Positions 27,884 to 43,394 of a stretch of 54,302 nt of DNA are shown here, one piece after another (the first letter of the stretch is position 1; each line of letters opens with the position of its first letter). Below the pieces are notes generated by a model. The model was not told where the DNA came from, made no database searches, and saw only the letters and a program-made list of their open reading frames with translations. Made by a program: the position numbers and the translations under genes. Origin of the DNA: Nitrospira sp. (GTDB lineage: Bacteria > Nitrospirota > Nitrospiria > Nitrospirales > Nitrospiraceae); contig JANDJK010000006.1 in assembly GCA_024330925.1 (NCBI GenBank), positions 1-54,302 on the forward strand, written 5' to 3'.

Positions 27884-27914
27884 AAAGGCAGCGGTCACGT
27901 GCCGCTGCCTTTTG
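27884..27914 (+). terminator. Intrinsic terminator after the cupredoxin-like gene
   Basis: AAAGGCAGCGG (27884-27894) pairs with CCGCTGCCTTT (27902-27912), an 11-bp perfect stem with a 7-base loop, ending in a short T run. It lies 26 bases after the stop codon. Confidence 0.8.
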
Positions 27915-28046
27915 CGTTTGAAGCAGGAACCATTCGAATCACGACGAGCAGAAATTCACCATGACGGTCTGCTCCTTGCCTTTCCTTTTCTTCTCTCTGT
28001 AAGATCAATTTTTCACAGCCTCGAAGAGGAGCAAGAGGGGGAAACT

Positions 28047-29045
28047 GTGTCACGAGAGCTCTCGCTCGCCGAGGTGTTTCAACTCGGCTATTACTGGGAA
28101 ACAAAAATCCTCTTAACGGCGGTGACGCTCGATGTGTTTACTGCGCTGGATGACCGGCCCAAGTCTGCCAGGGAAATTGCTGAGCAAATTGGTGCGCATG
28201 GACCGACGCTTGAGTTGTTGCTCAACGCTCTGGTGGCGATGAAGCTGTTGCTCAAGCAGGGGGACCACTATGCCAACTCGCCTGTAACGGGTCAGTACCT
28301 TGTCAAAAGCTCACCGCACTATGTCGGGTATCTACTGCGGCTTCATGATGCGGAGTGGAACAACTGGGGCAAGTTGGAGGAGACGGTCCGCACCGGACGC
28401 CGAATGGCAGATCGGCATGTCTTTGAGACTGATCCGGAATTGGGGGGCAATGTCTTGACTGTATTGGATCGAATCGGTCGTCAGAGTGGTCCGGAATTGG
28501 CGCGGCGCCTGAAATTGAAGGGTCCGGTTCGTTTGTTAGATTTGGGAGGAGGAGCAGGGACGAACGCCATTGCATTTTGTGAGGTGTATCCTGACTTGAC
28601 AGCGACCGTCTTTGATTTGCCGGCCACGCTCCGCCTCACGGAGAAAACGGTCAAAGAGCGAGGATTGACTGCTCGAATCACTCTGATGGCTGGAGATTTT
28701 AACCGGGATTCGCTTGGGGGACCCTACGATGTCGTATTGATGTCCGACATCTTGCATTATCAAACCAATGAGGGCAATGAAGCCTTGTTTAAAAAAGTGT
28801 ATGCCCATTTGACAACGGGCGGCCGTGTTGTGGTGAAGGATCGCTTTCTTGATGAAAGTAGGACAGCCCCAGCATGGACCACGGCCTTTGCCATCCATAT
28901 TTTGGTGAACACTCAGTTCGGAAGTTGTTATCGGTGTAGTGATGTCGTGCAATGGATGAAAAAGGCGGGATTTATTGACATTGTGGAAGAGGAAAAAACT
29001 GCCGTCGTTCAAGGGGTCAAGGGGCAGCAGGTGGGAGCAATGTGA
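28047..29045 (+). CDS. SAM-dependent methyltransferase (O-methyltransferase type, with dimerisation domain)
   Basis: 332 residues. The N-terminal winged-helix dimerisation domain (about 10-95) is followed by a class I methyltransferase with motif I LLDLGGGAGTNAI near residue 163, an acidic residue in VFDLPA (SAM ribose) and later LMSDILHY. This layout is that of the hydroxyneurosporene/acetylserotonin O-methyltransferase family. The substrate is unknown; in this place a role in quinone or haem-related metabolism is possible but is only inference. GTG 28047 is used because GAGCAAGAGGGGG lies upstream; the frame is open further 5' into the terminator. Confidence 0.85.
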   Translation: MSRELSLAEVFQLGYYWETKILLTAVTLDVFTALDDRPKSAREIAEQIGAHGPTLELLLNALVAMKLLLKQGDHYANSPVTGQYLVKSSPHYVGYLLRLHDAEWNNWGKLEETVRTGRRMADRHVFETDPELGGNVLTVLDRIGRQSGPELARRLKLKGPVRLLDLGGGAGTNAIAFCEVYPDLTATVFDLPATLRLTEKTVKERGLTARITLMAGDFNRDSLGGPYDVVLMSDILHYQTNEGNEALFKKVYAHLTTGGRVVVKDRFLDESRTAPAWTTAFAIHILVNTQFGSCYRCSDVVQWMKKAGFIDIVEEEKTAVVQGVKGQQVGAM

Positions 29046-29198
29046 ACTGTGGTGATGCAAGGACGAAGGAGACAATCGGTTGGATTTCTCTGCGGGGATG
29101 GGCGGCCAATGGACGAGGGACGAGCCCCGAGGAAAAGCAGTGAAAGCACATGAGCGCACAGGAAGACGTAAGAGAGCAGGAGTAATGGAGCAAGAATT

Positions 29199-29912
29199 AT
29201 GGAGTGGTTGAGGGAGCCGGGATTTTTCGGAACCCATGCCACAGTGGGTGCAGATTTGAGTCAATTGATGGCGACCCTCTTCACCGTGCTTTTTGTTGCT
29301 GGATGGCTGCAAGCACGCAAGCACAATACCAACGCTCATCATTGGCTGATGCTGAGTGGCATGGCTTCCATGGCCAGTTTCTTCGTGGCCTATTATCTCT
29401 TTCGTCAACTCGGTGTGTTAGCCTTCGAGGGAAAAGAAGGATTCGGTGGTTCACAAGAACTGTATGACCGTGTGTTTGTTCCGGTACTGACCCTGCACAT
29501 TATGCTCGTCATCATCGGTTTGATTATGGCGATCTATCTGATCGTGTTGGGATTTCGGGTTCAGACCTTCATCGGTGCCAAACGGCAGTTGAGGCGGGGA
29601 CCCAAACAGGTATCGTGGCGATCGGTGGCCAAGCTGTGGAGCGTCGTTGGTGGACTGATTGGAACGTACGTGCTGTATTTATACCTAGTTGACCGCTTGT
29701 CCGTGAGAAGGTTGAGTGTCTGGCTTGCGTTCATGGCTATCTTCACGACGGTGCTGCTTTTGGAGATGGCGATTCAACGAATTTGGCCGGATGGAGCACA
29801 GCGGCACCGGGCCCTTGGCCGATTGACGATGGTGATCTACTGTGTGTTGTTCGCGACCGGAAGCTTTACCTACGCGATGCTCTATATTTTTTATCCAGGA
29901 AAAATCGGATGA
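29199..29912 (+). CDS. DUF420-like integral membrane protein
   Basis: 237 residues with about six membrane segments. The conserved histidines of DUF420 proteins are seen: KHNTNAHHWLML (His42, His47/48), LTLHIMLVIIGL (His100) and RHRALGRLTMVIYC (a late His). DUF420 proteins (YozB/CtaM type) are linked with haem-copper oxidase assembly in other bacteria. That makes this a likely maturation factor for the bd-like oxidase that follows. It is the first gene of the respiratory block after the methyltransferase. Confidence 0.75.
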   Translation: MEWLREPGFFGTHATVGADLSQLMATLFTVLFVAGWLQARKHNTNAHHWLMLSGMASMASFFVAYYLFRQLGVLAFEGKEGFGGSQELYDRVFVPVLTLHIMLVIIGLIMAIYLIVLGFRVQTFIGAKRQLRRGPKQVSWRSVAKLWSVVGGLIGTYVLYLYLVDRLSVRRLSVWLAFMAIFTTVLLLEMAIQRIWPDGAQRHRALGRLTMVIYCVLFATGSFTYAMLYIFYPGKIG

Positions 29913-30021
29913 AAGGCAGAGCAAGCAGTGGCTATTGTGTGAGTCCATTGAATGGTACGCAAGGACGTGATCTCGGGAGAGCAGGGGAACCTTCTTGGGC
30001 TATATTTATGCACGGTGGGCA

Positions 30022-30522
30022 ATGTTGACCTGTGGATGTGGTCGCTGGATGCACACACAAGGAATCGAAGAGCTGAAGGGAGAAAAAGGGGTGCCCAGAT
30101 GGTTTGTCCGTTCGGAATGCCGCGGCTGCGGATTCATGGTGGGGGTCGATGTGCCGGCGGGACAGGAGGAGGGGGTCGTTGATCGGTTGATATGGACGGA
30201 TGAGGCGTTGCATCGGCTGGACCGGATGCCACCGTACATGGCGGTCCTTGTGCGACAGGAAGCGGAAGAGCGAGCAAGAGCTCGCGGAACTCGGGTTATT
30301 ACGTATGAGTCGCTCTTTCCGTCAGTGACCGATCAACAGATTGGGTGGGAATTGGAAGCGGAACGACGGCTGGAAAACGTACCACCTGCTGTGCGGGCAA
30401 TGGCGAAGGTCGAGTTGGAGCGAACGGCGGCGGAGCGGGGATTGCGGCGTGTGACTGTAGCGCTGATGGAAGAGGTCAAAGCCAAGTATTTTGGGATGAG
30501 TGCCAGACAAGATAAAGCCTAG
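30022..30522 (+). CDS. Double PCP_red-domain protein with N-terminal Cys cluster
   Basis: 166 residues. Two copies of the PCP_red (protochlorophyllide reductase 57 kDa subunit C-terminal) domain are seen at about 57-99 (WTDEALHRLDRMPPYMAVLV) and 109-157 (WELEAERRLENVPPAVRAMA). The N-terminus has C4, C6, C33 and C36 (TCGCG and CRGCG), which could bind zinc or an iron-sulfur cluster. In chlorophyll organisms this domain ends BchB/ChlB; in non-phototrophs its role is unknown. ATG 30022 is chosen; TTG 29995 is in frame upstream. It lies between the DUF420 gene and an oxidase-linked membrane protein, so a cofactor or assembly role for the oxidase is suspected. Confidence 0.75.
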   Translation: MLTCGCGRWMHTQGIEELKGEKGVPRWFVRSECRGCGFMVGVDVPAGQEEGVVDRLIWTDEALHRLDRMPPYMAVLVRQEAEERARARGTRVITYESLFPSVTDQQIGWELEAERRLENVPPAVRAMAKVELERTAAERGLRRVTVALMEEVKAKYFGMSARQDKA

Positions 30523-30580
30523 GAATGGTTGCTCAGGGTGGTGATGGAATGGATCCGTCCAGAGCGAATAGGGAGTGACG

Positions 30581-31651
30581 ATGCTCCATCGAATGGCACT
30601 GCGGGTGCTTCCGAGTTTGAGTCTGGCTGTAACGGAGGAATCCGTCCGAAAACGAAAACGATTGGTTATGTTGGTGTCAGGGGCGGTGGTCTTTCTAGTT
30701 TATCGGATGGCCAAGGATGTTATCCCGCTTGCAGATCCCTTTGTGCTGTTGGCAGTCAGTGGTGTGGTGTCGCTTGTCACGGCATTTGCAACTTATCGAG
30801 TCGGGAGATTGGATCATTGGCAGACGATTATTCGCGAAGATGGCCCTCGGATTCTGGGGTGGGTCCTTCTATGGGTTGGAGCGGTCTATGGTGTGCAACT
30901 CTCGCTGCTGGTGTTGGCCCTGTTGTGGGTGGTGGGCTACAACTATTTCTCCCATCCGGATGGTCCCGCAATGATGGCGATCATGGTTGCCTGCGCGTCT
31001 GTGGCGCGGGATGCCTTTGAGATCGGGCATGTGCGTCGGTTCGTTGTAAAGGGGAGACCATTTCCCACGTTTCCCGATGGAGCAGCCTTACGGGCATTGG
31101 TAAGAAGCCGAGCGCGCAGTGTCGGTGCGTGGGTGGGGATAGGAACAGTTGCCGGTGCCCTTGCTGCCTCCCTTGATTTCGTGATGACAGAACGGCTGGT
31201 CATTGTCCCACTGGTTGCCGTCTCATTGTCGGGTAGCGTGATCACCCTCTGTGCTTATTTAGAAGGAATGACTGAACGGGCCACTACCTCGACTTCCTCA
31301 TGGAGGGTTTGGTTGGCTGAGACAAAGCTGTCCGCGCTTCTCAAGTATTGGTGGTGGCCTGGGCTTGCCTTTTCGTCTACTTATTATTTGGTGGCGATGG
31401 GCATGTGGTTGTTCTTGTTTCAGTTCACGTTGATGGCTCCCCTCTACGTCGTTGGGATAGGAGCACTGGTGGGCGGGGTTATGGCGCTCTATGGCTATTA
31501 TTTGGGGCATCGTCGGCTGGTGGAGGAACAGGAGGGACAACGGTTGAAGGAAGGACTTCTTCGATGTCCCTTTGTCATGGGGATTCTTGGAGGGACAAAC
31601 CAGGCGGGACGGGCCCTGCCGACTGCTCCTGGATCAAAAGGTGTAGCATGA
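30581..31651 (+). CDS. Polytopic membrane protein of unknown function, coupled to oxidase A
   Basis: 356 residues and about eight membrane segments, with none of the CydB or cytochrome motifs that could be looked for. No family was recognised. GGGAG sits five bases before ATG 30581. Its TGA overlaps the ATG of bd-like oxidase A (ATGA), which implies coupled translation and a linked job. It could be an unrecognised second oxidase subunit or an assembly factor. Histidines near the N-terminus and in EIGHVRRF are few, so a haem-binding role is not obvious. Confidence 0.7.
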   Translation: MLHRMALRVLPSLSLAVTEESVRKRKRLVMLVSGAVVFLVYRMAKDVIPLADPFVLLAVSGVVSLVTAFATYRVGRLDHWQTIIREDGPRILGWVLLWVGAVYGVQLSLLVLALLWVVGYNYFSHPDGPAMMAIMVACASVARDAFEIGHVRRFVVKGRPFPTFPDGAALRALVRSRARSVGAWVGIGTVAGALAASLDFVMTERLVIVPLVAVSLSGSVITLCAYLEGMTERATTSTSSWRVWLAETKLSALLKYWWWPGLAFSSTYYLVAMGMWLFLFQFTLMAPLYVVGIGALVGGVMALYGYYLGHRRLVEEQEGQRLKEGLLRCPFVMGILGGTNQAGRALPTAPGSKGVA

Positions 31652-33525
31652 TTACTGGAAACCGATACTGGCTGCAGAGACAGGGGCGGTTGATGGCGCT
31701 CGGAGCCATTGTGCTGCTGATTATCCTGTGGAGTCTTAGTGTACAGGAAGCATGTTTGGCCGAAGAATCACTGGATATTTATTTCAACACGCCAGGGGAG
31801 CCGCAAGGTCCTCCTGCTCCGGGACCCCACGAAATGGTCTATCCCCAAATCGGCTCGCTGGATAGCCGGGCGCTTGTGTGGTTTGTCACGCAGCAACACA
31901 CGTACTTTGGCGGGTTCGTGCTGGCGTTGCCGCTCTTTTGTGCGTTGCTTGAATTCCTGGGGTTGATCACTACCAAACCGGCGTTGTCGCTCAGATATGA
32001 TGCCCTAGCGAGGGATTTGGCCAAGGTTGCGGTCTTAGCCCTTTCTGTGACCGCGATCATTGGGAGTCTGATGCTCGCTATGTTTATCAAGCTTTATCCG
32101 AGTTTCATGGCTTATATGGGGGGAACGTTCAAATCCTTTATGCCCGCCTATGCTGCCGTGTTTGTGGCCGAGTCCCTTCTTCTGATGCTTTATTACTATA
32201 GCTGGGATCGGATGACGGAACGAGGGGCGAAGTGGGGTCATGCAGCCATTGGGGTAGCGACGAACGCTGTGGGGACCGCGCTGCTCCTGTTAGCCAATGC
32301 CTGGTCCGCCTTCATGATGGCTCCGGCTGGTGTAGATGCGCAGGGGCGGTTTTTGGGCAACGGTTGGCACCTCTTGCATTCGGTCTTGTGGAATCCACTC
32401 AACGTCCATCGATTTTTGGCGGACATTATGTCCGGGGGGGCGGTTGTGCTCGCCTATGCCTGTTATCGGTTTTTCACTGCTAAAACGGTGGAGGAACGAG
32501 CCTATTTCGATTGGGTGGGATATGTGTTCCTCGTGGTCACGGTTTGCGCGTTGTTGCCGATGCCGATTGCGGGCTACTGGCTGATGCGATCTGTCTTTGC
32601 ATTCCGGCAGACCATGGGAGTGACTATGATGGGGGGGCTCTTGACCTGGATGTTTGTGGTGCAGGCGCTGCTGATTGGCGCCTTGTTTCTAGGCATCAAC
32701 TATTACATCTGGCAGAGCATGGCGCGGCTCAAAGGAGCAGAGCGGTATCAACCCTACTCTCAATTAGTGTTTGGCGGACTACTGTTGGCGCTGTTCATTT
32801 GGCTGACACCGCATACGCTCCTCATGTCGCCTGGTGAGATGAAGGCGATGGGTGGTGCGCAACATCCGGTTATCGGGAATTATGGGGTCATGTCGTCTAA
32901 AAACGGAGCCATCAACGTAATTCTTCTCTGCACCGCGCTGAGCTTTCTCTACATGCGGCGTGCAAATCGAACGATGACGGTATCGTGGGTGACGACGGGC
33001 AATATTGTTCTTGCCGTGTTGTTTGGGGTAGGGATCGCGAACGTGGTGGGGTTGTCAGTTTACGGGTTTTATCTGCCAGCGAATGTGCGGGTGGGCTTGT
33101 CGGTGCCGCAAGCTTGCACCACACTGACAGTGATTGTGGTCGGTCTGGTGATCAACCGCGCTATGCTCAGACGATCGATCGTGCATGGCCCGATCCAATG
33201 GGGAAATATCCCGTCACGCGGCATGGTGGTGCTGTTTGCAATGGCGGCGGCGTTCAGCTGGGTGATGGGGCTGATGGGATATATCCGCTCGTCGGGACGG
33301 TTGGCCTGGCATGTGAGTGAGCTGATGGCGGATGTGTCGCCCTGGGCGTTTACTCCGGATCTCTCGTTTGCTGCCCAAATGGTGACCTTGAACATGGTGG
33401 TGTTTTGGGCAGCGGTGCTAGTGCTCTTTTGGATGTGTCAATGGGGTCAGCAACCGGTGATGGGGGAAGAAAGTCCCCATCAAAATACCCCCCTCTTGTC
33501 AGCGGTTTCGTCGCATGAAACATAA
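31648..33525 (+). CDS. Cytochrome bd-like oxidase, copy A
   Basis: 625 residues with about 14 membrane segments. It resembles CydA in its first half. His84 (QQHTYFGGF) lies where CydA has the haem b595 ligand His19. Glu175 (VFVAES) lies where CydA has a conserved Glu. His254 in NPLNVHRFL lies where CydA has His186. Extra histidines occur at 241/244, 389 (TPHT) and 406 (AQHP). The CydA quinol-loop block GRQPW is missing. Nitrospira genomes are known to encode such bd-like proteins in place of, or beside, haem-copper oxidases; whether this one reduces O2 and from which donor is not shown. It is 46 percent or so similar in pattern to copy B at 37162 by eye only. Confidence 0.85.
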   Translation: MITGNRYWLQRQGRLMALGAIVLLIILWSLSVQEACLAEESLDIYFNTPGEPQGPPAPGPHEMVYPQIGSLDSRALVWFVTQQHTYFGGFVLALPLFCALLEFLGLITTKPALSLRYDALARDLAKVAVLALSVTAIIGSLMLAMFIKLYPSFMAYMGGTFKSFMPAYAAVFVAESLLLMLYYYSWDRMTERGAKWGHAAIGVATNAVGTALLLLANAWSAFMMAPAGVDAQGRFLGNGWHLLHSVLWNPLNVHRFLADIMSGGAVVLAYACYRFFTAKTVEERAYFDWVGYVFLVVTVCALLPMPIAGYWLMRSVFAFRQTMGVTMMGGLLTWMFVVQALLIGALFLGINYYIWQSMARLKGAERYQPYSQLVFGGLLLALFIWLTPHTLLMSPGEMKAMGGAQHPVIGNYGVMSSKNGAINVILLCTALSFLYMRRANRTMTVSWVTTGNIVLAVLFGVGIANVVGLSVYGFYLPANVRVGLSVPQACTTLTVIVVGLVINRAMLRRSIVHGPIQWGNIPSRGMVVLFAMAAAFSWVMGLMGYIRSSGRLAWHVSELMADVSPWAFTPDLSFAAQMVTLNMVVFWAAVLVLFWMCQWGQQPVMGEESPHQNTPLLSAVSSHET

Positions 33526-33549
33526 ATTGGAAAACGGGAGAGTTGTTCG

Positions 33550-34218
33550 ATGGGGATCACGTTGACAGTATTCATGAGAGTTCTGTTAGGAGGGTTGGTC
33601 GTCAGTGGCTTTGCCGCTGCCCCGATTGGGGGGCAGGCTGAGGAGCAGGTTCTGGTTTTGGAAGATTTTAAAGAGAAAGATGCGGATGGCTTTCCATCAT
33701 TGTGGGAACACGAAAGTCAGCGCAGCAAATCAAAAGGACGAGAAGCTTACAAAGTCCAGTCCGAAAACGGGCACACCTTCTTATCGGCGAAAGACGCTGG
33801 GCAGCGGATCAAGAAGAAAAAGATCGACTGGGACCCACGAGCCTACCCTGTTCTCACGTGGCGATGGCGATTAATCAAGGCGCCGGCTGGCAACGAGCCA
33901 CTTGCGGCTGTCTATGCCTCGCTCGATACCGATCTCTTGTTTATTCCGGTCTTTACCAAATACGTTTGGAGTCCTTCAAAGCCGGAAGGGACGTTGACGG
34001 AAGGAGGAATGTTTAGTGGTTCTGAGATTGTAGTCCGGAGCGGTACAACAGCAGTGGGCCAGTGGTTTGAGGAACAGGTAAACGTCTACGAAGATTTTAA
34101 AAGGATCCATGGACATGAGCCGGCGGCCAAAGCATGGGGGATCTCGCTCATGGCGGGGGCTGGGGTAGAGATTGATTTTGGTCCGCTGATAGCGCTTCCA
34201 ACGAAGGCGGCACAATGA
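33550..34218 (+). CDS. Exported DUF3047 protein
   Basis: 222 residues. A signal peptide (cleavage after GGQA) precedes a beta-sandwich domain with LTWRWRLIKAP and the KIDWDPRAYPV block that marks DUF3047. Family function is unknown; members are often exported. Here it follows oxidase A after 24 bases and overlaps the next gene by 4 bases, so it belongs to the same operon. A GGGAGAG site lies upstream. Confidence 0.8.
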   Translation: MGITLTVFMRVLLGGLVVSGFAAAPIGGQAEEQVLVLEDFKEKDADGFPSLWEHESQRSKSKGREAYKVQSENGHTFLSAKDAGQRIKKKKIDWDPRAYPVLTWRWRLIKAPAGNEPLAAVYASLDTDLLFIPVFTKYVWSPSKPEGTLTEGGMFSGSEIVVRSGTTAVGQWFEEQVNVYEDFKRIHGHEPAAKAWGISLMAGAGVEIDFGPLIALPTKAAQ

Positions 34219-34613
34219 TGGTGAACCCTATTAGCCAATGGGGTTGTCAGATATCCAAAGGGCAACTCCTGGACATAGTGCTGGGGATAACGGTCATGGG
34301 AACCGTAGGAGCCTTGATCGGAATGGTGATGGGCGGAGGAGCGGTCCCCATCGCTGTTGGAGTGGGACTGCTGTTAGGCAGTGTCATTGGGCTATTGGGA
34401 GGACGTCGATTTCTTGTCAGTATTATGGTGGGAACAGTCGTGGGGGGGATACTGGCGTGGCTAGTGGCTGATGTGGAACGTCTGTGGGTAGGGGCAGGTG
34501 CCGGGGCGGCAATGGGTGGATTTCTCGGCGTTCATGTGTCGATGTTGCTCGACCTTCGAGCGGCTAGGAAGTCCGCTTCTGATGAGGGCTCGCCTCCGAC
34601 GCCGCAGCCCTAA
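34215..34613 (+). CDS. Small glycine-rich membrane protein
   Basis: 132 residues with about four short membrane segments very rich in Gly, Val and Ala (GMVMGGGAVPIAVGVGLLLG), resembling glycine-zipper proteins. The tail is short and charged. No family was assigned. Its ATG overlaps the stop of the DUF3047 gene (ATGA), which supports both its reality and an operon. Confidence 0.65.
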   Translation: MMVNPISQWGCQISKGQLLDIVLGITVMGTVGALIGMVMGGGAVPIAVGVGLLLGSVIGLLGGRRFLVSIMVGTVVGGILAWLVADVERLWVGAGAGAAMGGFLGVHVSMLLDLRAARKSASDEGSPPTPQP

Positions 34614-34631
34614 ACAGTGGGAGAGGCAATT

Positions 34632-35525
34632 GTGGAGCATCGAGGTGTATTGTACGGATCAATCATTTTTGTCTTTGCGTCATTTTTGGGGCTCATCGGT
34701 ATGTTGGTTTATGAATCCTACAAAGCAAACAAGGTCAAGGAGCTGGCCAAAACGGTCGCATCCGGGACTCAGACCGCGAAAGCGGCAGCGACACCTCAGG
34801 ACTATTCCATGTACAAGATCAAGATCGGCGATGAAGGGCGCGAAATGGTGTATATCCCGGAGGGGCCGTTCACGATGGGGAGTAACGACGGGGATCCGGA
34901 TGAGGCTCCCGAACATCAGGTGTTCTTAAAAGGGTTCTATATCGATCTTAAAGAGGTGACCCAGGCGGAATACCTGCGATTTGCCAACATGACAAAACGT
35001 CCGTTACCGAAAATCGAGGTGTTTGAGGATGACCAGTCAAAGTTACTACAGCCTGAGTTTGCCGTGATGAGTGTTTCGTGGAGCGATGCGGCGGCCTACT
35101 GCAAATGGGCCGGCAAGCGCTTGCCAACAGAGGCGGAATGGGAAAAAGCCGGTCGTGGCGAAGGCAAGAGAAAGTATGCATGGGGGGACCAATTTGCTGC
35201 CGATCGCGCCAATCTAGAAGGTAGTGAGGATGGATACAAATACCTTGCGCCTCCCGGTTCATTTGAAGCCGGCCGGAGCCCTTATGGACTCTATGATATG
35301 ACGGGCAATGTGGCGGAATGGGTGGCGGATTCGTATGACGAAAACTACTACAAAAAATCGCCGTATCGGGATCCGAAGGGACCGGAAGAAGGAGATCTCA
35401 AGGTGGTGCGAGGAGGTTCATGGAGAGAAACCGCTCATAATGCCCGTCTGTCTAAGCGCTTTGCGGCAAAGCACTGGCGAGCCGATATTACGATTGGCAT
35501 CCGCTGCGCGGCAGATGCTGATTGA
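34632..35525 (+). CDS. Membrane-anchored SUMF1-domain protein, copy 1 (lacks FGE active-site cysteines)
   Basis: 297 residues. One N-terminal membrane helix (about 7-27) and a linker lead to a formylglycine-generating-enzyme (SUMF1) fold: YIPEGPFTMGS, LKEVTQAEYLRF, KRLPTEAEWEKA, YDMTGNVAEWVADS and VVRGGSW. True FGE has two active-site cysteines after the RGGSW block, in the CRxxxR region; here the matching stretch reads AHNARLSKRF, so oxidase activity on sulfatases is unlikely. Related proteins such as NirV sit in respiratory gene clusters. GTG 34632 has a GGAGAGG site six bases upstream. It likely faces the periplasm. Confidence 0.85.
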   Translation: MEHRGVLYGSIIFVFASFLGLIGMLVYESYKANKVKELAKTVASGTQTAKAAATPQDYSMYKIKIGDEGREMVYIPEGPFTMGSNDGDPDEAPEHQVFLKGFYIDLKEVTQAEYLRFANMTKRPLPKIEVFEDDQSKLLQPEFAVMSVSWSDAAAYCKWAGKRLPTEAEWEKAGRGEGKRKYAWGDQFAADRANLEGSEDGYKYLAPPGSFEAGRSPYGLYDMTGNVAEWVADSYDENYYKKSPYRDPKGPEEGDLKVVRGGSWRETAHNARLSKRFAAKHWRADITIGIRCAADAD

Positions 35526-35573
35526 GGAGGTCAGCCTGACGCGCGAAGTCCTTTGGCTCCCTGCAGCGTAGCT

Positions 35574-36503
35574 ATGTTGGAGACAAGGTTCAAAGTCGTG
35601 TTCCTGGTGGTCGTGCTTGCATGCGCGGCTCTGCCGATCGCCGGCATTCTAAAAGGCACGACCTTGACTCCCTACGAACAACCAGTCGGTGAAATGGTTG
35701 TTGAGTCGGAGCCTGCCGATATTTCGAATCAAGCACTGGTTGAAGAGGAGATGGTCATGATTCCGGCAGGACCGTTTATTCGAGGAACGGAAGAGGGGGG
35801 GTTCGACGAACGACCATCACGGGTAATCTACTTGGATGAGTTTTTTATTGATCGGTATGAGGTGACAAACCATCAGTATCAGCAGTTTGTTGTGGCAACG
35901 GGACACCGCAAGCCTGGCTTGCCGGCCAGATATGTCAAAGGCGGAGGAAAGATGAAGGGGCCCAATCAGCCGGTCGTCTATGTGTCGTGGGAGGATGCGG
36001 ATGCCTATTGCCGTTGGAAAGGGAGACGGCTTCCCACAGAGGCAGAATGGGAAAAGGCCATGCGCGGTACTGATGGGAGGCTGTGGCCTTGGGGGAACAA
36101 GGAACTAGTCAATGGTGCCAATTGGGCCCGTGTGTATGACGGCTATGAAGTGTCCGCCCCAGTTGGGAGCTTCAAGATGGATCAGAGTCCCTATGGGGTC
36201 ATGGATGGAGCGGGAAATGTCATGGAATGGGTGGCTGATTGGTACCAGGAAGAGTATTACCACGATTCTCCTGAGCGCAATCCGATGGGTCCTGAATTTG
36301 GAACCTATCGGGTGCTAAGGGGAGGGGGGTATACAACCACCGGGGCTGATGTGAGAATCACGAGCCGCAGCAAGATGATGCCGGATTTCCGCGATGAAAC
36401 TATCGGGTTCCGCTGCGCGATGTCCGGGACATCGCAAAGAGGAAGCGAGACGAACACTAGAGAAAGTCGAAATAATACAAGATTAAAAACACAGCCAGAA
36501 TGA
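35574..36503 (+). CDS. Membrane-anchored SUMF1-domain protein, copy 2 (lacks FGE active-site cysteines)
   Basis: 309 residues and paralogous to the previous gene. It has an N-terminal helix (VVFLVVVLACAALPIAGIL) and the same blocks: MIPAGPFIRGTEEGGFDE, RRLPTEAEWEKAM, MDGAGNVMEWVADW and VLRGGG. The region of the FGE cysteines reads ADVRITSRSKM, again with no Cys. It probably arose by tandem duplication. The tail after about residue 285 is Arg/Thr/Glu-rich and poorly conserved in type. The start lacks a clear ribosome site. Confidence 0.83.
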   Translation: MLETRFKVVFLVVVLACAALPIAGILKGTTLTPYEQPVGEMVVESEPADISNQALVEEEMVMIPAGPFIRGTEEGGFDERPSRVIYLDEFFIDRYEVTNHQYQQFVVATGHRKPGLPARYVKGGGKMKGPNQPVVYVSWEDADAYCRWKGRRLPTEAEWEKAMRGTDGRLWPWGNKELVNGANWARVYDGYEVSAPVGSFKMDQSPYGVMDGAGNVMEWVADWYQEEYYHDSPERNPMGPEFGTYRVLRGGGYTTTGADVRITSRSKMMPDFRDETIGFRCAMSGTSQRGSETNTRESRNNTRLKTQPE

Positions 36504-36561
36504 TATTGACAACCATTCCAGCCAAAACTATAATGTCAAACACTTTCGCATTTTTTGACAT
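36457..36561 (-). CDS. Possible 34-residue single-helix membrane protein (overlaps promoter)
   Basis: A minus-strand frame of 34 codons starts MSKNAKVFDIIVLAGMVVNI and continues as a hydrophobic helix. AAGGG lies seven bases before the ATG. It overlaps the 3' end of the second SUMF1 gene and also the perfect promoter at 36506-36534, so it may be chance. Confidence 0.25.
   Translation of the reverse strand: MSKNAKVFDIIVLAGMVVNIILAVFLILYYFDFL
36506..36534 (+). promoter_or_regulatory. Perfect-consensus sigma-70 promoter for the small proteins and oxidase B
   Basis: TTGACA (36506-36511), a spacer of exactly 17 bases and TATAAT (36529-36534): both hexamers match the consensus fully. It starts right after the SUMF1 copy 2 stop and would begin transcription near 36541, giving a leader of about 150 bases before the small gene at 36691. 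Confidence 0.8.
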
Positions 36562-36617
36562 ACTTTTTCCCTTGCACAGTCAAATTTCACACCTCAGTTG
36601 ACGAGGAGTTGATTAAC

Positions 36618-36635
36618 ACAGGGTCACCTCCCTGT
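36618..36635 (+). promoter_or_regulatory. Leader hairpin carrying an anti-Shine-Dalgarno-like loop
   Basis: ACAGGG (36618-36623) pairs with CCCTGT (36630-36635) around the loop TCACCT. The loop and stem contain CACCTCC, complementary to the GGAG-type site before the gene at 36691. Any switching function is speculation. Confidence 0.3.
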
Positions 36636-36690
36636 CAAGAAACACAAGGCCGGTTGTTCATCTCTTTTTTATCATGACAAGGAGCTATCG

Positions 36691-36816
36691 ATGGCAGAGA
36701 CAGCCCAGCAGGATAGTGATATCAAGATCAAAATTGGCAAGATGATTTTCTATATTACCTGCGCAGTCTCGCTGTGGTTTTTCTATTGGTTTGCAGGGAT
36801 TCAGTGTCCCTGCTGA
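36691..36816 (+). CDS. 41-residue single-helix membrane protein upstream of oxidase B
   Basis: 41 residues: a charged N-terminus with KIKIGKM, then one helix (MIFYITCAVSLWFFYWFAG) and a tail ending in CPC. AAGGAG lies a few bases before the ATG. It is too short for length-limited gene finding. Its placement between a strong promoter and an oxidase gene, and its size and single helix, recall small oxidase subunits such as CydX, although no sequence likeness to CydX was seen. Confidence 0.72.
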   Translation: MAETAQQDSDIKIKIGKMIFYITCAVSLWFFYWFAGIQCPC

Positions 36817-36899
36817 ACAACGCGCGAGAAGGAGCCGACGAGGCTGGCTTGCGCTAAGGGAAGTGACTGAGCTAGGCAAGGAAGGAAGGGGAAGAGAGC

Positions 36900-37031
36900 A
36901 TGAGCGCACTTAACAATCCGATTATTGCGGTGCTTGTGTCACTGGTTATTGCGGTGACGTATTTTACGCTGATTGATCACTACCTGATGGAAATGCAAGG
37001 GTTGGATTTTTGGTATCTGTTTCGTCAATGA
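36900..37031 (+). CDS. 43-residue single-helix membrane protein upstream of oxidase B
   Basis: 43 residues: a short polar start, one helix (IIAVLVSLVIAVTYFTLI) and a tail with DHYLMEMQGLDFWYLF. GGAAGGGGAAGAGAG precedes the ATG, a strong purine-rich site. The gene lies 83 bases after the previous small gene and 130 bases before oxidase B. Like it, this is a candidate small subunit or assembly peptide of the oxidase; the family was not recognised. Confidence 0.72.
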   Translation: MSALNNPIIAVLVSLVIAVTYFTLIDHYLMEMQGLDFWYLFRQ

Positions 37032-37092
37032 CGAAAGGGGAAGGTGCTGAAGCAGTAGGGTTGTCTAGTGTGATCACGGGTGTCAACAAGAT

Positions 37093-37101
37093 TGGTATAA
37101 G
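37093..37101 (+). promoter_or_regulatory. Possible extended -10 promoter just before oxidase B
   Basis: TGGTATAAG matches the extended -10 form (TGnTATAAT) at 8 of 9 positions, about 60 bases before the oxidase B start. No -35 element is at the right distance. It may give an extra start inside the operon. Confidence 0.3.
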
Positions 37102-37161
37102 GGAAATGAGTTGAAAGGGGTTGGAAGGATCAGTGATTGTCCTTGCCCAAGGAGGTATTTC

Positions 37162-39078
37162 ATGGGTGTTGTAACGCGGAAGAAACTATTCTCGACCGTT
37201 GCGCTATGCGCGATCGTCGTTTCTCTCTTCCTTCCGATCGTTATGGCGCTTCCGTCGCCAGCTACGGGTGAGGAGGCTCCGGTTGCGGAGGGGGCACCAA
37301 AGGAAGGGGAGAAGGTTGAAAAGGCTCGAGATGTCTACTATAAGACCGAAGGTATTGTTGTTGGAGCTCCTGCCCCCAAAACAACGGACAGTCCCACTGA
37401 TTATCCGCGATACAACTTTGAAAGCCGGGTGCTGATCTGGTTTGCCAACCAGCAACATCTGTATTACGGAAGCTTTGTCCTTGCGGTTCCCATATTCTGT
37501 ATGATCATCGAGTTTATGGGTGTGATGACGAAGGACAAAGCGCTGGCTAAGCGGTACGATCAATTAGCGTATGATTTTATCAAGATTAGTCTGACCGCGT
37601 ATTCGCTGACAGCCATTCTGGGCGGAATACTCATCTTTACCTTCTTGACCCTCTATCCAACATTCTTCGCCTATCTTTCGAGTATCTTCCGTCCGGTCAT
37701 GCACATCTATGCGCTGATGTTCGTGGCTGAGAGCGGAACCCTCTACATCTACTACTATGGCTGGGACAAGATGAAGGAGGGATTCTTAAAGTGGATTCAC
37801 TTGAGCATGTCCGTTATTCTCAACGTCATCGGGACTCTGCTCATGTTCTTGGCAAATTCCTGGATCGGCTTCATGATGTCACCAGCCGGTGTTGATGAGC
37901 AGGGGCGTTATCTGGGCAACATTTGGCATGTCATTCATACCGCTCTGTGGAATCCGCTTAATCTCCATCGTATTCTCGGTAACATGGCCTTTGGGGGAGG
38001 CGTGGTTGCTGCGTATGCCGCGTACAAATTCTTGGCGGCGAAGACCGATGAAGAAAGGGCCCACTATGATTGGATGGGGTACATCGCCATGGCCCTTGGC
38101 GTGGCGTTCCTGATCCCTCTTCCATTTGCGGGCTATTGGCTCATGCGAGAGGTCTATGCCTATCGGCAGCAGATGGGAATTACGCTCATGGGTGGATTGC
38201 TGGCGTGGCTGTTTATCATTCAGGCGACGATGATTGGCATCCTCTTTTTGAGCACCAATTATTACTTATGGCAGGCATTAGGCCGGATGAGGGGTGCTGA
38301 ACGCTTTCAGCGGTATATTAAGTACCTTGTTTTCTTAATGGCGTGTGGGTTCATGGTCTTTATCACTCCCCATACCATGGTCATGACTCCGGCTGAGCTC
38401 AAAGCGATGGGCGGGCAACAACACCCTGTGTTGGGCAACTATGGAGTCATGTCAGCCAAAAACGGGGGAATCAATGTCATTATTGTGACCACCGTGCTCA
38501 GTTTCGTATGGTACATGCGAGGCAATAAAGTACCGACTGTTTCGTGGGCTCGGTTCGGTAACATCTTTATGGGGGTATTTTTCGCCTGTGCGTATATCAA
38601 TATCATCTTCCTTGCTATCTACGGGTATTACATTCCGGCAAATGTGCGGGTCGGCCTCTCGGTTCCCCAAGTGGCCAGCACGTTGTCGTGTCTCTTCTTC
38701 ATGTTTGCATTAAACAGTTTGATGATGAAAGGAGCCAAGCAATTGGGGCCAATTGAGTGGGGGAAAATCTCTGCTCGTTCCCAGTATGCCCTTATCATGC
38801 TGGCGACGGCCTTTACGTGGATGATGGGATTGATGGGGTATATTCGCTCGTCCGTTCGTCTATTCTGGCATGTCAATGAAATCATGCGAGATAATTCTCC
38901 GTGGGCCTATACCCACACCGTTGGATTCGCAGCCAATGTGATTTCAGCTAACGTTCTATTCTTTTGGATCAGCATTCTCTTTGTCTTCTGGCTTGGCAGC
39001 TTAACTGCCAAGAAAGCTCCAGTTGAGGCGAAGGTTGGGGTTCCTGGAGCTATTCCGCAACCGGCTGGAAGCCATTGA
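37162..39078 (+). CDS. Cytochrome bd-like oxidase, copy B
   Basis: 638 residues, about 14 membrane segments after a signal-like N-terminus and an Ala/Glu/Pro-rich stretch. The CydA-like positions are kept: His99 (QQHLYYGSF), Glu190 (FVAES), His269 (NPLNLHRIL). Also kept as in copy A are His256/His259 (WHVIHT), His404 (TPHT) and His421 (QQHP). GRQPW is absent. AAGGAGG lies just before ATG 37162, which fixes the start. This is the copy followed directly by membrane cytochromes c, so it may take electrons from cytochrome c rather than from quinol. That is inference from gene order. Confidence 0.88.
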   Translation: MGVVTRKKLFSTVALCAIVVSLFLPIVMALPSPATGEEAPVAEGAPKEGEKVEKARDVYYKTEGIVVGAPAPKTTDSPTDYPRYNFESRVLIWFANQQHLYYGSFVLAVPIFCMIIEFMGVMTKDKALAKRYDQLAYDFIKISLTAYSLTAILGGILIFTFLTLYPTFFAYLSSIFRPVMHIYALMFVAESGTLYIYYYGWDKMKEGFLKWIHLSMSVILNVIGTLLMFLANSWIGFMMSPAGVDEQGRYLGNIWHVIHTALWNPLNLHRILGNMAFGGGVVAAYAAYKFLAAKTDEERAHYDWMGYIAMALGVAFLIPLPFAGYWLMREVYAYRQQMGITLMGGLLAWLFIIQATMIGILFLSTNYYLWQALGRMRGAERFQRYIKYLVFLMACGFMVFITPHTMVMTPAELKAMGGQQHPVLGNYGVMSAKNGGINVIIVTTVLSFVWYMRGNKVPTVSWARFGNIFMGVFFACAYINIIFLAIYGYYIPANVRVGLSVPQVASTLSCLFFMFALNSLMMKGAKQLGPIEWGKISARSQYALIMLATAFTWMMGLMGYIRSSVRLFWHVNEIMRDNSPWAYTHTVGFAANVISANVLFFWISILFVFWLGSLTAKKAPVEAKVGVPGAIPQPAGSH

Positions 39079-39111
39079 GCAACTCTCTTTAATGCGATCG
39101 CTTTGTCGGAG

Positions 39112-39136
39112 GAGGGGGCATTGCCTCTGCCCCCTC
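39112..39136 (+). promoter_or_regulatory. Stable hairpin between oxidase B and the cytochrome c genes
   Basis: GAGGGGGCA (39112-39120) pairs perfectly with TGCCCCCTC (39128-39136), loop TTGCCTC. No T run follows, so a processing or stability element is more likely than full termination. Confidence 0.5.
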
Positions 39137-39158
39137 TCCAAAGAGGAGGGGTAGCACC

Positions 39159-40472
39159 TTGGGAAATTTGATTGTTGAAGCCCTGTCGATGGGGTGGATG
39201 GCGTTGGCCATCTTGGTTGGGTTGTTAATCTATTTTCAGGTCTCCATCACCGATCCTACGGCAAAGAAACGAGCCGTCTTTAAAACATTTATTGGTATTG
39301 TTTCGACATTTCTTCTTTTTATCGCAATCGCCAACTATAAAATGAATTTTTATGGAGAGAGCCGGTTGTTGCCGGTGTCTCTTGCCATGATCACTGCTAC
39401 CACCTTCATCATGGCCTTATACTTTACCAACCTTAGCGCCTTGTTGAAGATCGGTGGGTTTATGTTTTTCGTAGCGGCGTTTCTTTCTGGTTACGGAAAC
39501 TGGCTTCCCCAAGTAGAAGGAGGATTCCCGCCTAAAGAGGAAAAACTCGATTTTAGTTCGATGACGCCCCAGCAATTGGCGGATGAAGGTGAGAAAATCA
39601 TTTTTGGGGGGATAGGAAAAAATAAAGAACAGGGGGCGATTGGGAAAGGGCAGTGTCCCCTGTGTCATGCATTTCATGCTGGTATGCTCGGCGAGCGTGC
39701 GCCAAACTTGCTGGGTATTGTGAATCGAGCAAAGGAACGGATTGAGGATCCAAAATATTCGAAGGGTAACCCGGCTAAGCGCGACTACGTGGTAAAGGAG
39801 GCATTCCCAGGAGCTGGTACGGCTGAAAATGCTCAAGAATATATAGCCGAATCACATGCTTGTCCCAGTTGCTATGTGGTTGAAGGGTACGGAGTCAAAG
39901 GTACCAATGACCGGGAAAGTCCTATGCCGCCTATCCACAAGCCCCCCATCTCGTTGAGTCTGCCTGAGCTTGTGGCTGTTGATGTATGGATGTATGTGCG
40001 TGAAGGGGTAGAGCCGCCTTCGTTTGAGGAGATGATTAAGTCTTATGAGAAGTTCATTCCCGAGGGAGAACGTCCTCAGCTTCAAGAAAACAAACCCAAA
40101 GAAGGCGAAGCGAGTTCGTTAATGGCTGACGGCTCTGAGCCTGTTGATCAAATCTTTGCCAAGGCTCAATGTGTGGCTTGTCATACCATCCCTGGGATTC
40201 CGGGAGCAGTGGGGACGATTGGTCCTAAGCTAGAAGAAGGGACAACCGCTGCTCAACGTATTAAAGCACCAGATTACAAAGGGTCGGCGAAATCTCCCGC
40301 AGAATATATTATGGAATCGATCGTGGATCCCAGCGCGTACGTGGTCAAACCATATCCCGACAATACCATGCCGAAAGTGTTTGGCCAAAAACTGAGTGCG
40401 GGGGCACTGAAGAAAATCGTGGATTACCTCTCGCAGGTTAAAGCGGGAGCTCCACCACCAAAGATTTCGTAA
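39159..40472 (+). CDS. Membrane-anchored dihaem cytochrome c
   Basis: 437 residues. Four membrane helices fill the first 115 residues, followed by two class I cytochrome domains with CPLCH (166-170) and CVACH (338-342). Each domain ends in a Met-Pro that could be the sixth ligand (SPMPP, TMPKV). The first domain has an extra CPSC pair (235-238) where the second has DPSA. The soluble part should lie in the periplasm. The start is TTG 39159, with GGAGG upstream; no ATG is nearby. It follows oxidase B and so is a likely electron donor subunit. Confidence 0.85.
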   Translation: MGNLIVEALSMGWMALAILVGLLIYFQVSITDPTAKKRAVFKTFIGIVSTFLLFIAIANYKMNFYGESRLLPVSLAMITATTFIMALYFTNLSALLKIGGFMFFVAAFLSGYGNWLPQVEGGFPPKEEKLDFSSMTPQQLADEGEKIIFGGIGKNKEQGAIGKGQCPLCHAFHAGMLGERAPNLLGIVNRAKERIEDPKYSKGNPAKRDYVVKEAFPGAGTAENAQEYIAESHACPSCYVVEGYGVKGTNDRESPMPPIHKPPISLSLPELVAVDVWMYVREGVEPPSFEEMIKSYEKFIPEGERPQLQENKPKEGEASSLMADGSEPVDQIFAKAQCVACHTIPGIPGAVGTIGPKLEEGTTAAQRIKAPDYKGSAKSPAEYIMESIVDPSAYVVKPYPDNTMPKVFGQKLSAGALKKIVDYLSQVKAGAPPPKIS

Positions 40473-40530
40473 GCGAGAGCGCGCGGCACGGTCGCTCATC
40501 AGGCTAAAGAAAGGCCAAAGGGAGTATACA

Positions 40531-41568
40531 ATGAAAGCACTAATGTCACTTGGCGCACTAGTAGGAGTCGTCGGATTGTTGCTGCTGGCTGGCATGGTGT
40601 TCGACATCATTCCGTCTACGACGGTTCGTCTGGTCGAAGGCTACATGCCGATGCAGATGTTATTTGAGGTGGGGTGCTTTGTTCTTGGGTTCACTGGGCT
40701 CAGTTACATGCTCAATGCTGTGGGGATGGGGATCCCTCGATTTTGGCAGGGCATCGGATTCTGGGTATTTTTTCTTCTCTACATCAAATATCGCATTTAT
40801 CCTCCTATCCCCTTTAGCGTAAGGGCTATGTATGGCACAGTTGCCCTGGTTGCAGTGTTGATGTGGCTTTCCTCTAACGAAGAAGATTGGAAGAAATTTA
40901 AACAACCCATTCTCAATGTGCTGGATGCCCAGACGGGGTTCAATAAGTTTCTGCGCTATGTATACTTGGTCGCTCTTCCGATTCTGACATGGGGATTCTC
41001 TTACAATGCGATGATGCCAAAATCAGAAGAGCCGATTGAGCTGCGAACCGTACATCCAGCTCCTCCTGCCAGCACCAAGGTTCATGGAAAGACGTATGTA
41101 CTTCAAACGGCATTGAATCCCTATCGTGTGAACCCAGAGGGAAAATACGATCAGGAATATACCAACTCCCTCATCGTTGAGCAGGGCATGGGGCGCCTGA
41201 TGAAACCTAATGCTAATCCATGGGATGAAAACGCAACAGGATACCTGAAATACGTCCGTGAGGGAGGCGAAATCTTCTTCCAAAATTGCCATTTCTGTCA
41301 TGGAGACAATCTCAACGGTCGCGGTCTCCATGCCTTTGCATTTAACCCCATTCCTGCCAACTTTACAGATCCTGGTACCATCGCCCAATTACAAGAGACA
41401 TTCATCTTCTGGCGGGTCGCCAAGGGTGGGATGGGGCTTCCCAATGAGGGATTCCCATGGGCATCAGTAATGCCGCCATGGGAGCAGCACCTGACCGTTG
41501 ACGAAATGTGGAAAGTCATTCTCTTTGAATACTGGCACACTGGCTACTATCCAAGGACATGGGATTAA
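40531..41568 (+). CDS. Membrane-anchored monohaem cytochrome c
   Basis: 345 residues. About five membrane helices occupy residues 1-160, and a single cytochrome c domain follows with CHFCH at 253-257 and MPPWEQHLTVDEMW near the end. AAAGGGAG lies before the ATG. It shares its layout (membrane bundle, then periplasmic haem domain) with the gene before it. It is likely part of the electron path to the oxidase. A Glu/Pro-rich linker joins the parts. Confidence 0.85.
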   Translation: MKALMSLGALVGVVGLLLLAGMVFDIIPSTTVRLVEGYMPMQMLFEVGCFVLGFTGLSYMLNAVGMGIPRFWQGIGFWVFFLLYIKYRIYPPIPFSVRAMYGTVALVAVLMWLSSNEEDWKKFKQPILNVLDAQTGFNKFLRYVYLVALPILTWGFSYNAMMPKSEEPIELRTVHPAPPASTKVHGKTYVLQTALNPYRVNPEGKYDQEYTNSLIVEQGMGRLMKPNANPWDENATGYLKYVREGGEIFFQNCHFCHGDNLNGRGLHAFAFNPIPANFTDPGTIAQLQETFIFWRVAKGGMGLPNEGFPWASVMPPWEQHLTVDEMWKVILFEYWHTGYYPRTWD

Positions 41569-41618
41569 GGAAGGAACTCGATAGTTTATTCGGTCAACAC
41601 ACTTTGAAGAGGCGTATT

Positions 41619-43394
41619 ATGCAAAAGCGTGGAACTCAGGTGGCGAGTCTTGTTGTTTCGGCGACCGCTGGAGCCATTCTGATGACCGTGTCAGGGACGG
41701 CTATGGTCTTTGCGCAGAGTGGTATCCCAGAAGGCTTCAAAAAAGGTGAACTCGCTCCTCCACCTTCTCCAGAGATGATTGAAGCGGGGAAGCGAGTGTA
41801 CTTCACCAAGTGTGTCTGGTGCCATGGCGTTGATGGAGCTGGAGATGGTCCAGCGGCCGATCGGCTGTGGCCACGGCCTCGGAATTTTAATCAAGGGACG
41901 TTTAAAATTCGTCTTACTGCCAGCGGAGAACTGCCTTTGTTCGACGCCAAGAAGCCTATTCCCGGACAAAATGATCTCTTTGACACTGTTACTCACGGCC
42001 TGCCAGGTTCAGCCATGCCGCCGTGGGAAGGGATTCTGACGGAAGAACAACGGCTACAGGTGCTCGCTTTTGTGACAACGCAGTTGGTCAAGGATCGAAG
42101 TTTCACGGACAAGCAATCAGAAACTCAAACAGTCTTGAATTTGGCAGAGCTTAAGCCCAAGCCAGCAACTGAGGAAAGCATCAAGAGAGGGGCTGAGCTC
42201 GTAGTCGAGAAGAAGTGTATTGAATGTCACGGAGTGGAAGGTCGTGGTGATGGGAACGCCTTCAATTTAAAGGATGACTGGGGATTTTCTATTCAGCCGG
42301 CCAATTGGCATAAGTGTTGGAACTTTAGAGGAAGTCGTCAAGATCCCTACAATGTGGCCAATATTTTTAGAACCTTCTCCACTGGGATCAACGGTACGCC
42401 CATGCCATCCTTTGCAGATAGCACAACAATCGATGAGCGGTGGGACATTGCCAACTTCGTCAACTCTCTTTGTGAACGTGACGCAAAGGGGAATCCCCTT
42501 TCAATTGATCCCTTGACGGACAAACCCAAGATTGACTTCGTGATCCCCTCCAATCCCGTTGAGGGAGAGATTCCTGCAGATATTGAGCATGAAGCGTGGA
42601 AAAACACTCCGCGCCGTTATGTAGCGATGGGAGGGCAGATTACCCATAAGCCGCGAAACTTCGTCAATCGCATTGACGATATTTGGGTCCGGTCACTCTA
42701 CAATGAGAAGTCGATTGCGTATTTGCTGGAGTGGGATGATCGAACCAAGAGTGTAGCGGAGGGGAAATTGCCGTGGGCCCCCACCGAAGTCAATATTGAT
42801 ATCGAGGAACAACCTCCGGTGACAGGCGAAGAGGGATCCATCGCTGCCAAGCAGAACAATTATCCGGTGTATAATGATGCCATCGCTATTGAAACGCCGG
42901 TGAAATGGCAAGAGTTACCAGCTCCCATTAAGCCCCGATACCTGTTTGGAACGAATGAACAGTTTCCCGTAGACATTGTGAAATGGGAGGCAGATGGATC
43001 CATTCGGGCCTTTAAAGGCACCGGCTGGGATAAAGATTTTGAAGAGCGAGACAGCTACGAAGAGTATCTCAAGGTTCTCAAGAGTGAGTGGAAAAACGGC
43101 CGCTGGTACGTACTCATCGAACGGCCACTCGGCAATAAGAAAGAGCAGGACTATGATGAGGATACGTTTTTCGAGGTCGGTAAATACATTCCGACGGTCT
43201 TCTTTGCGTGGGATGGGCACAATGGAGATGCTGGTCGGAAGATGGCAGTGTCGGCCTTTTACTATACGTTCATGAATCCCCCGATTCCTCAGGAAACGTA
43301 TATTTATCCTGTTCTCATTGCCTTTGGGGTGGTCTTTCTTGAGGGATGGGTTTTAACGAGACGGGCTAACAAGAAGAAAGGAAAGACGTTGTAA
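41619..43394 (+). CDS. Dihaem cytochrome c fused to an NxrC-like (EB_dh) haem domain and C-terminal anchor
   Basis: 591 residues. A signal peptide (cut near MVFAQ) leads to two cytochrome c domains with CVWCH (65-69) and CIECH (200-204). From about 318 to 560 comes a domain like the gamma subunit of type II DMSO reductases (EbdC/NxrC/DdhC), a beta-sandwich that binds haem b. The last helix (IYPVLIAFGVVFLEGWVLT, about 567-585) is followed by a basic tail, so the protein is anchored. NxrC passes electrons from nitrite oxidoreductase; fusion to cytochrome c domains suggests direct transfer towards the oxidase. GAGG lies before ATG 41619; an earlier ATG 41559 gives no signal peptide. Confidence 0.85.
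   Translation: MQKRGTQVASLVVSATAGAILMTVSGTAMVFAQSGIPEGFKKGELAPPPSPEMIEAGKRVYFTKCVWCHGVDGAGDGPAADRLWPRPRNFNQGTFKIRLTASGELPLFDAKKPIPGQNDLFDTVTHGLPGSAMPPWEGILTEEQRLQVLAFVTTQLVKDRSFTDKQSETQTVLNLAELKPKPATEESIKRGAELVVEKKCIECHGVEGRGDGNAFNLKDDWGFSIQPANWHKCWNFRGSRQDPYNVANIFRTFSTGINGTPMPSFADSTTIDERWDIANFVNSLCERDAKGNPLSIDPLTDKPKIDFVIPSNPVEGEIPADIEHEAWKNTPRRYVAMGGQITHKPRNFVNRIDDIWVRSLYNEKSIAYLLEWDDRTKSVAEGKLPWAPTEVNIDIEEQPPVTGEEGSIAAKQNNYPVYNDAIAIETPVKWQELPAPIKPRYLFGTNEQFPVDIVKWEADGSIRAFKGTGWDKDFEERDSYEEYLKVLKSEWKNGRWYVLIERPLGNKKEQDYDEDTFFEVGKYIPTVFFAWDGHNGDAGRKMAVSAFYYTFMNPPIPQETYIYPVLIAFGVVFLEGWVLTRRANKKKGKTL

Follow-up and report, generated by a model that had tools for sequence, protein, structure and literature searches.

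The alt_NxrC_2/bd-like_3/bd-like_4 island of Nitrospira, with copy B as its probable core

Two bd-like genes stand a few genes apart in one respiratory island of a Nitrospira genome, which raises the question of what each of them does. An initial annotation had proposed two oxidases of related fold with different electron donors and partners, or one hetero-oligomer of the two proteins, here called copy A and copy B. We analyzed the whole stretch of 54,302 nucleotides (the window), contig C118 of a 2.44-Mb Nitrospira MAG that is 90.6% complete.

Gene content and identity of the island

We observed that the conserved island reaches upstream as far as position 27064, taking in a cupredoxin-like protein and a methyltransferase, and that its gene order is kept in about 60 Nitrospira loci spanning the region (Table 1). 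The neighbors originally listed for the two copies (DUF420, PCP_red, a polytopic membrane protein, DUF3047 and two SUMF1 proteins) were all recovered. Both copies matched PF01654 (Cyt_bd_oxida_I) above the cut-off, in agreement with their bd-like assignment; the match covers the N-terminal part only, the first about 250 positions. Of the three cytochromes c reported beside B, all downstream of it, two are membrane-anchored cytochromes c and the third is a diheme protein of the NxrC-like kind. A homologue of copy B from Nitrospira sp. shares 97% identity with it.

Table 1. Genes of the island, with positions in the window
Feature	Coordinates	Strand	Remarks
Cupredoxin-like exported protein, CDQHxxM motif	27064..27858	+	Pfam: weak fn3_3 only; fold putative
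O-methyltransferase (Methyltransf_2 + dimerisation)	27912..29045	+	Start codon uncertain
DUF420 membrane protein (CtaM/YozB family), long form with insertion	29199..29912	+	PF04238, E 1.1e-18
PCP_red protein	29995..30522	+	PF08369, E 9.6e-21; resembles BchB C-terminus; start codon uncertain
Polytopic membrane protein	30575..31651	+	No Pfam family match; about 7 predicted helices
Copy A, bd-like protein (bd-like_4)	31648..33525	+	PF01654, E 2.8e-15
DUF3047 protein	33550..34218	+	PF11249, E 4.5e-18; tracks A
132-aa membrane protein	34215..34613	+	Tracks A
SUMF1-fold protein a	34617..35525	+	PF03781, E 9.4e-57; N-terminal helix
SUMF1-fold protein b	35553..36503	+	PF03781, E 1.1e-58; N-terminal helix
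Tiny single-helix protein 1	36691..36816	+	C-terminus Cys-Pro-Cys in Nitrospirales
Tiny single-helix protein 2	36900..37031	+	Motif D(H/W)..M..QGLDY(W/F)
Copy B, bd-like protein (bd-like_3)	37162..39078	+	PF01654, E 2e-20
Membrane-anchored diheme cytochrome c	39159..40472	+	Two CxxCH in 76/76 orthologues; about 4 helices
Membrane-anchored monoheme cytochrome c	40531..41568	+	One CxxCH in 72/72 orthologues
alt_NxrC_2	41559..43394	+	Two heme c sites; EB_dh (NxrC-like) domain; C-terminal helix

The cupredoxin-like protein keeps C..H..M in 37/37 genus orthologues, and also beside the B module in other families (L151, L153, L157). An ORF of the tiny protein 1 kind, with a C-terminal CxC, was present in 76 of the 80 genus loci (the other 4 begin at or just before B), and the tiny protein 2 kind in 73. 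Relatives of both precede B in other families; the tail of tiny protein 1 is His-containing in L151 and L165. Because the genus conserves both ORFs at the protein level and relatives recur before B elsewhere, we regard them as genuine, as first annotated. The catalytic Cys pair of formylglycine-generating enzyme (FGE) is located in its C-terminal region. We found no such pair in SUMF1a or SUMF1b, whose sole C-terminal Cys belongs to a terminal G(I/F)RCA, and neither protein therefore classifies as an FGE.

The N. moscoviensis orthologues of B and A map to 3,442,875 and 3,448,340 (3.44-3.45 Mb), and that of the NxrC-like protein has a mass of 66.8 kDa when one of its possible start codons is used. 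The published alt_nxrC_2 (NITMOv2_3640) encodes a 66.8-kDa diheme protein with one helix (Table 2, PMC6606698). Map position and protein mass together identify the island as the alt_NxrC_2/bd-like_3/bd-like_4 locus, with B as bd-like_3 and A as bd-like_4: a bd-like gene stands with two cytochromes c and the 66.8-kDa diheme alt_NxrC_2, and its bd-like duplicate lies a few genes off. The A-B pair has thus been known since 2019, when Mundinger described bd-like_3, bd-like_4 and the alt_NxrC_2 cluster (PMC6606698), in line with the earlier remark that Nitrospira has known bd-like proteins.

The same two measures ruled out the complex IV locus (bd-like_1/2, alt_NxrC_1) as the identity of the island. 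The proposed complex IV is bd-like_2 (NIDE0901), and its locus carries a 30-kDa alt_NxrC_1 (NITMOv2_0740) (PMC6606698); neither A nor B corresponds to it. The other bd-like pair of N. moscoviensis lies at 0.70 Mb, which fits bd-like_1 and bd-like_2. The other pair in the MAG itself, of the C and D types, is on contig C62 (L174:3344-10982) and matches bd-like_1 and bd-like_2.

Copy B compared with copy A

We measured conservation in 59 Nitrospira loci having DUF420, A, B and the NxrC-like gene, with the window as reference. Median identity was 90.3% for B, the most conserved protein of the island, and 76.0% for A, with the same direction throughout the 59 loci (P = 2.4e-11, paired Wilcoxon). 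The cytochromes and the NxrC-like protein reached 81-85%, and the remaining genes from the methyltransferase to B 55-75%.

The B module also occurs without A in four other families of the same class. Three of their loci (L151, L153, L157) contain the cupredoxin-like protein, SUMF1a, SUMF1b, B, both cytochromes c and the NxrC-like protein, and the fourth (L154) has the module from SUMF1b onward. No A orthologue was present among the profile matches of the genomes behind these loci. B is therefore the older core. Because the SUMF1 proteins accompany B where A is absent, they are partners of B rather than of A. The initial division of neighbors between the copies did not hold: the SUMF1 and cupredoxin-like proteins go with B in L151, L153 and L157, and DUF420 forms a separate group with PCP_red or the methyltransferase (L152, L155, L162, L167). 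The methyltransferase adjoins DUF420 also in L162, L167 and L178. Only the polytopic protein, which was found only where A is, the DUF3047 protein and the 132-aa protein track A.

Across Nitrospirales, the two copies are present together. A further bd-like paralogue exists in family f5, adjoining B in L148 and L149, and the best tree joined A with this paralogue (95/95) through long branches; a Nitrospirales-only duplication was not rejected (AU P = 0.27). In another family (f3, genome G160), a tandem bd-like pair flanked by cytochromes c (L150:8127-11781) forms a separate branch near the B clade.

Both copies keep E. coli CydA H19, H126 and H186, which are H99, H213 and H269 of B, and an additional His (His570 in B numbering) is universal among the bd-like sequences aligned. 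CydA E107 is mostly kept, as E190 of B, and all bd-like sequences examined have Tyr at the E99 position (Tyr183 in B). Aligned with CydA, both copies lack E445 and GRQPW. The initial claim of conserved CydA-like positions is therefore correct for His and only partly so for Glu. GRQPW is a later CydA motif beside E445; its absence had been noted correctly, and its description as a quinol-loop block was mistaken. We found no CydB in the MAG (at its 90.6% completeness) or near the A-B island, consistent with the earlier reading. With Tyr at E99, no E445 or GRQPW and no CydB in the MAG, the pair is not a canonical quinol-oxidizing CydAB.

His181 is present in all B-clade sequences of the class, and every A sequence has Pro there. 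A has also lost two residues that are common in the family, Glu330 and Arg576. B-like proteins from other classes of the phylum (L163-L165) have Ile at position 181, where this class has His. AlphaFold models of A and B had a mean pLDDT of about 61-63, probably due to shallow alignments, and the top Foldseek matches of both low-confidence models were CydA chains. Together with PF01654, these matches place both copies in the cytochrome bd superfamily with a CydA fold, as the initial annotation had supposed in calling their folds related. A is a faster-evolving paralogue that lacks several B-clade residues, and its likelier role is that of an accessory or partner subunit, not of a second independent oxidase.

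DUF420 and a candidate metal site

DUF420 is the family of CtaM, a heme-copper-oxidase assembly factor. The island protein belongs to it by its PF04238 match and conserved His: the long form has His47/48, His100 and His203 in common with short forms. DUF420 was present in 57/57 class genomes, of which only 7 had a strong COX1 match (E below 1e-30), and no CtaA was found in 39 Nitrospira genomes. Outside the class, all 22 genomes with DUF420 had a COX1 match, two of them weak, and the three phylum genomes with Ile181 in a B-like protein had no DUF420. Since the class has a single common ancestry, these DUF420, COX1 and His181 counts do not represent independent events, and some of the DUF420, COX1 and bd-like tallies assume that genomes without a match were listed by kinship, nearest first. 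DUF420 was apparently lost at L048 and L081; at L048 a run of N occupies the expected place of the gene. We found no literature link of DUF420 or CtaM to Nitrospira respiration, and the universal presence of the family in a class mostly without heme-copper oxidases is apparently unreported. In most deeper families DUF420 is not adjacent to B; in L153 it is near B. A Nitrospirales genome (G145) has a second, short DUF420 protein (L177:7667-8152) among chemotaxis genes, not near an oxidase.

The stretch 27912-30522 encodes three proteins with distant tetrapyrrole relatives: the methyltransferase (BchU, its best NCBIfam model, far below the cut-off), DUF420 (CtaA) and PCP_red (BchB, protochlorophyllide reductase subunit B). 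These genes are partly together in other families as well, and judged by such likenesses a heme-modification role for the group is conceivable. DUF420 has been proposed as the ancestor of the heme A synthase CtaA (PMC8239418).

His181 stands two residues before Tyr183, the CydA E99 position. The combination of DUF420, the CPC tail of the tiny protein and His181 is a lead, not proof, from sequence patterns toward a metal site. In a copper-containing enzyme of the bd superfamily, the CtaM-like DUF420 protein would deliver copper to a B-clade site including His181, helped by the CPC-tailed tiny protein and the cupredoxin-like protein; we rate this arrangement as rather unlikely. Putative copper sites have reportedly been proposed for bd-like_2. 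We know of no cytochrome bd shown to contain copper, and copper in the B complex, if true, would be a first for the superfamily. The DUF420 protein could instead serve the oxidase at the other locus. One relative, G172, has DUF420 and B and no C or D type at E 1e-20.

Proposed function and comparison with known systems

From gene content, conservation, the occurrence of B without A in relatives and the residue differences, we infer a complex, its electron path, its acceptor and a role for A. We favor, with moderate confidence, a reading in which the alt_NxrC_2/bd-like_3/bd-like_4 locus encodes an NXR-fed, cytochrome-c-driven bd-like membrane complex with B at its core, and A is probably an accessory or partner. 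B would supply the core heme subunit, and its companions would be alt_NxrC_2, both tiny helical proteins and the two membrane cytochromes c, one diheme and one monoheme. From the periplasmic nitrite oxidoreductase, electrons would pass to alt_NxrC_2, then to the cytochromes c and finally to the bd-type hemes of B. Since no quinol-loop or GRQPW block is left, the donor side would be cytochrome c, not quinol. The acceptor of the B complex would be O2, to which we assign an even chance.

O2 is favored by bd family membership, by the gene content of G172, by near-complete Nitrospira genomes without COX1 and CydB, and by strong transcription of the cluster. In G172 (96% complete), B was the sole bd-like protein, COX1 gave no match, and no CydAB was found within the 1.9 of 2.4 Mb read; in at least one relative, B apparently stands alone as a bd-like protein. 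Neither COX1 nor CydB was found in the MAG or in near-complete G019, G030 and G055. G019 and G030 have four bd-like genes each, and genomes without COX1 and CydB carry the other bd-like locus where checked. In many Nitrospira genomes, a frame of about 430-510 aa matches COX1 weakly and in part, over about model positions 4-180. Transcription of alt_nxrC_2 was about six-fold above that of alt_nxrC_1, and genes of the alt_nxrC_2/bd-like_3 cluster were among the 40 strongest transcribed genes (PMC6606698); the six-fold difference fits a high-flux branch. Against the favored reading, the literature's preferred complex IV is bd-like_2 at the other locus, and a homologous cluster is reportedly conserved in anammox bacteria (PMC3578206, PMC6606698), anaerobes for which O2 is excluded as the usual acceptor.

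The anammox cluster speaks for quinone as the acceptor, reached by pmf-driven reverse transport, which we hold to be possible at somewhat less than even chance. The B complex would then not be an oxidase, and would move nitrite electrons uphill to quinone for reverse electron transport, like an inverse complex III. Such a role was proposed in PMC3578206 and PMC6606698, and we treat it as a tentative alternative. The Tyr at E99 and the absence of E445 imply that the O2 site of B differs from that of CydA, which would suit a non-oxidase, but Tyr also occupies the E99 position in the C and D types, to which the proposed oxidase belongs. Moreover, B has no recognizable quinone site and is the only oxidase candidate found in the part of G172 that was read, and reverse transport carries few electrons, yet the cluster is among the strongest transcribed.

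An A-B hetero-oligomer is possible in Nitrospirales, where both copies co-occur. In its fullest form, A would replace CydB, of which there is none near the island, in a single CydAA'-type enzyme, an arrangement we find plausible though not the expected one. CydAA' heteromers of two OR-N types have been proposed, but the published pair combines a NIDE0901-like OR-N2 with an OR-N1, and NIDE0901 belongs to the other locus (PMC12342949, PMC10839748). A keeps the heme-ligand His, unlike CydB, and the occurrence of B without A in four other families means that the ancestral B module cannot depend on the hetero-oligomer. Two separate oxidases with different electron donors are improbable. Both copies keep the heme His positions and have a related fold, and some genes track each, so this much of the initial proposal stands; A, however, is a faster-evolving paralogue that has lost E330 and R576, conserved in most of the family; the island offers it no separate cytochrome c, and the SUMF1 and cupredoxin-like genes are part of the B module.

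What is new here is the picture of B as the conserved core of an ancient electron-transfer module, A as its faster-changing duplicate and neighbors that hint at copper, in a class where a heme-copper-oxidase assembly family is universal and heme-copper oxidases are mostly missing. These results narrow the tests, since B, not A, is the ancestral core.

Compared with E. coli CydA, A and B have in common the N-terminal helices and the H19, H126, H186 and mostly E107 positions, and differ by Tyr at E99, the lack of E445/GRQPW and CydB, and extra helices. The OR-N CydAA' of Murali 2021, as far as it is conveyed by citation in PMC12342949 and PMC10839748, has a bd-like CydA without a quinol site and cytochrome c as proposed donor, as here; NIDE0901, the oxidase subunit proposed for it, lies outside the A-B island, at the other locus. 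By description, the NXR-associated cluster of Nitrospina gracilis and Ca. Kuenenia (PMC3578206) resembles the island in its 14-helix bd-like protein, mono- and diheme cytochrome c, alternative NxrC and cupredoxin-like proteins, whereas the copy A duplicate is reported for Nitrospira. The N. moscoviensis cluster has the same genes in the same order as the window, its A and B proteins being 77% and 90% identical to those described here, and nothing essential differs.
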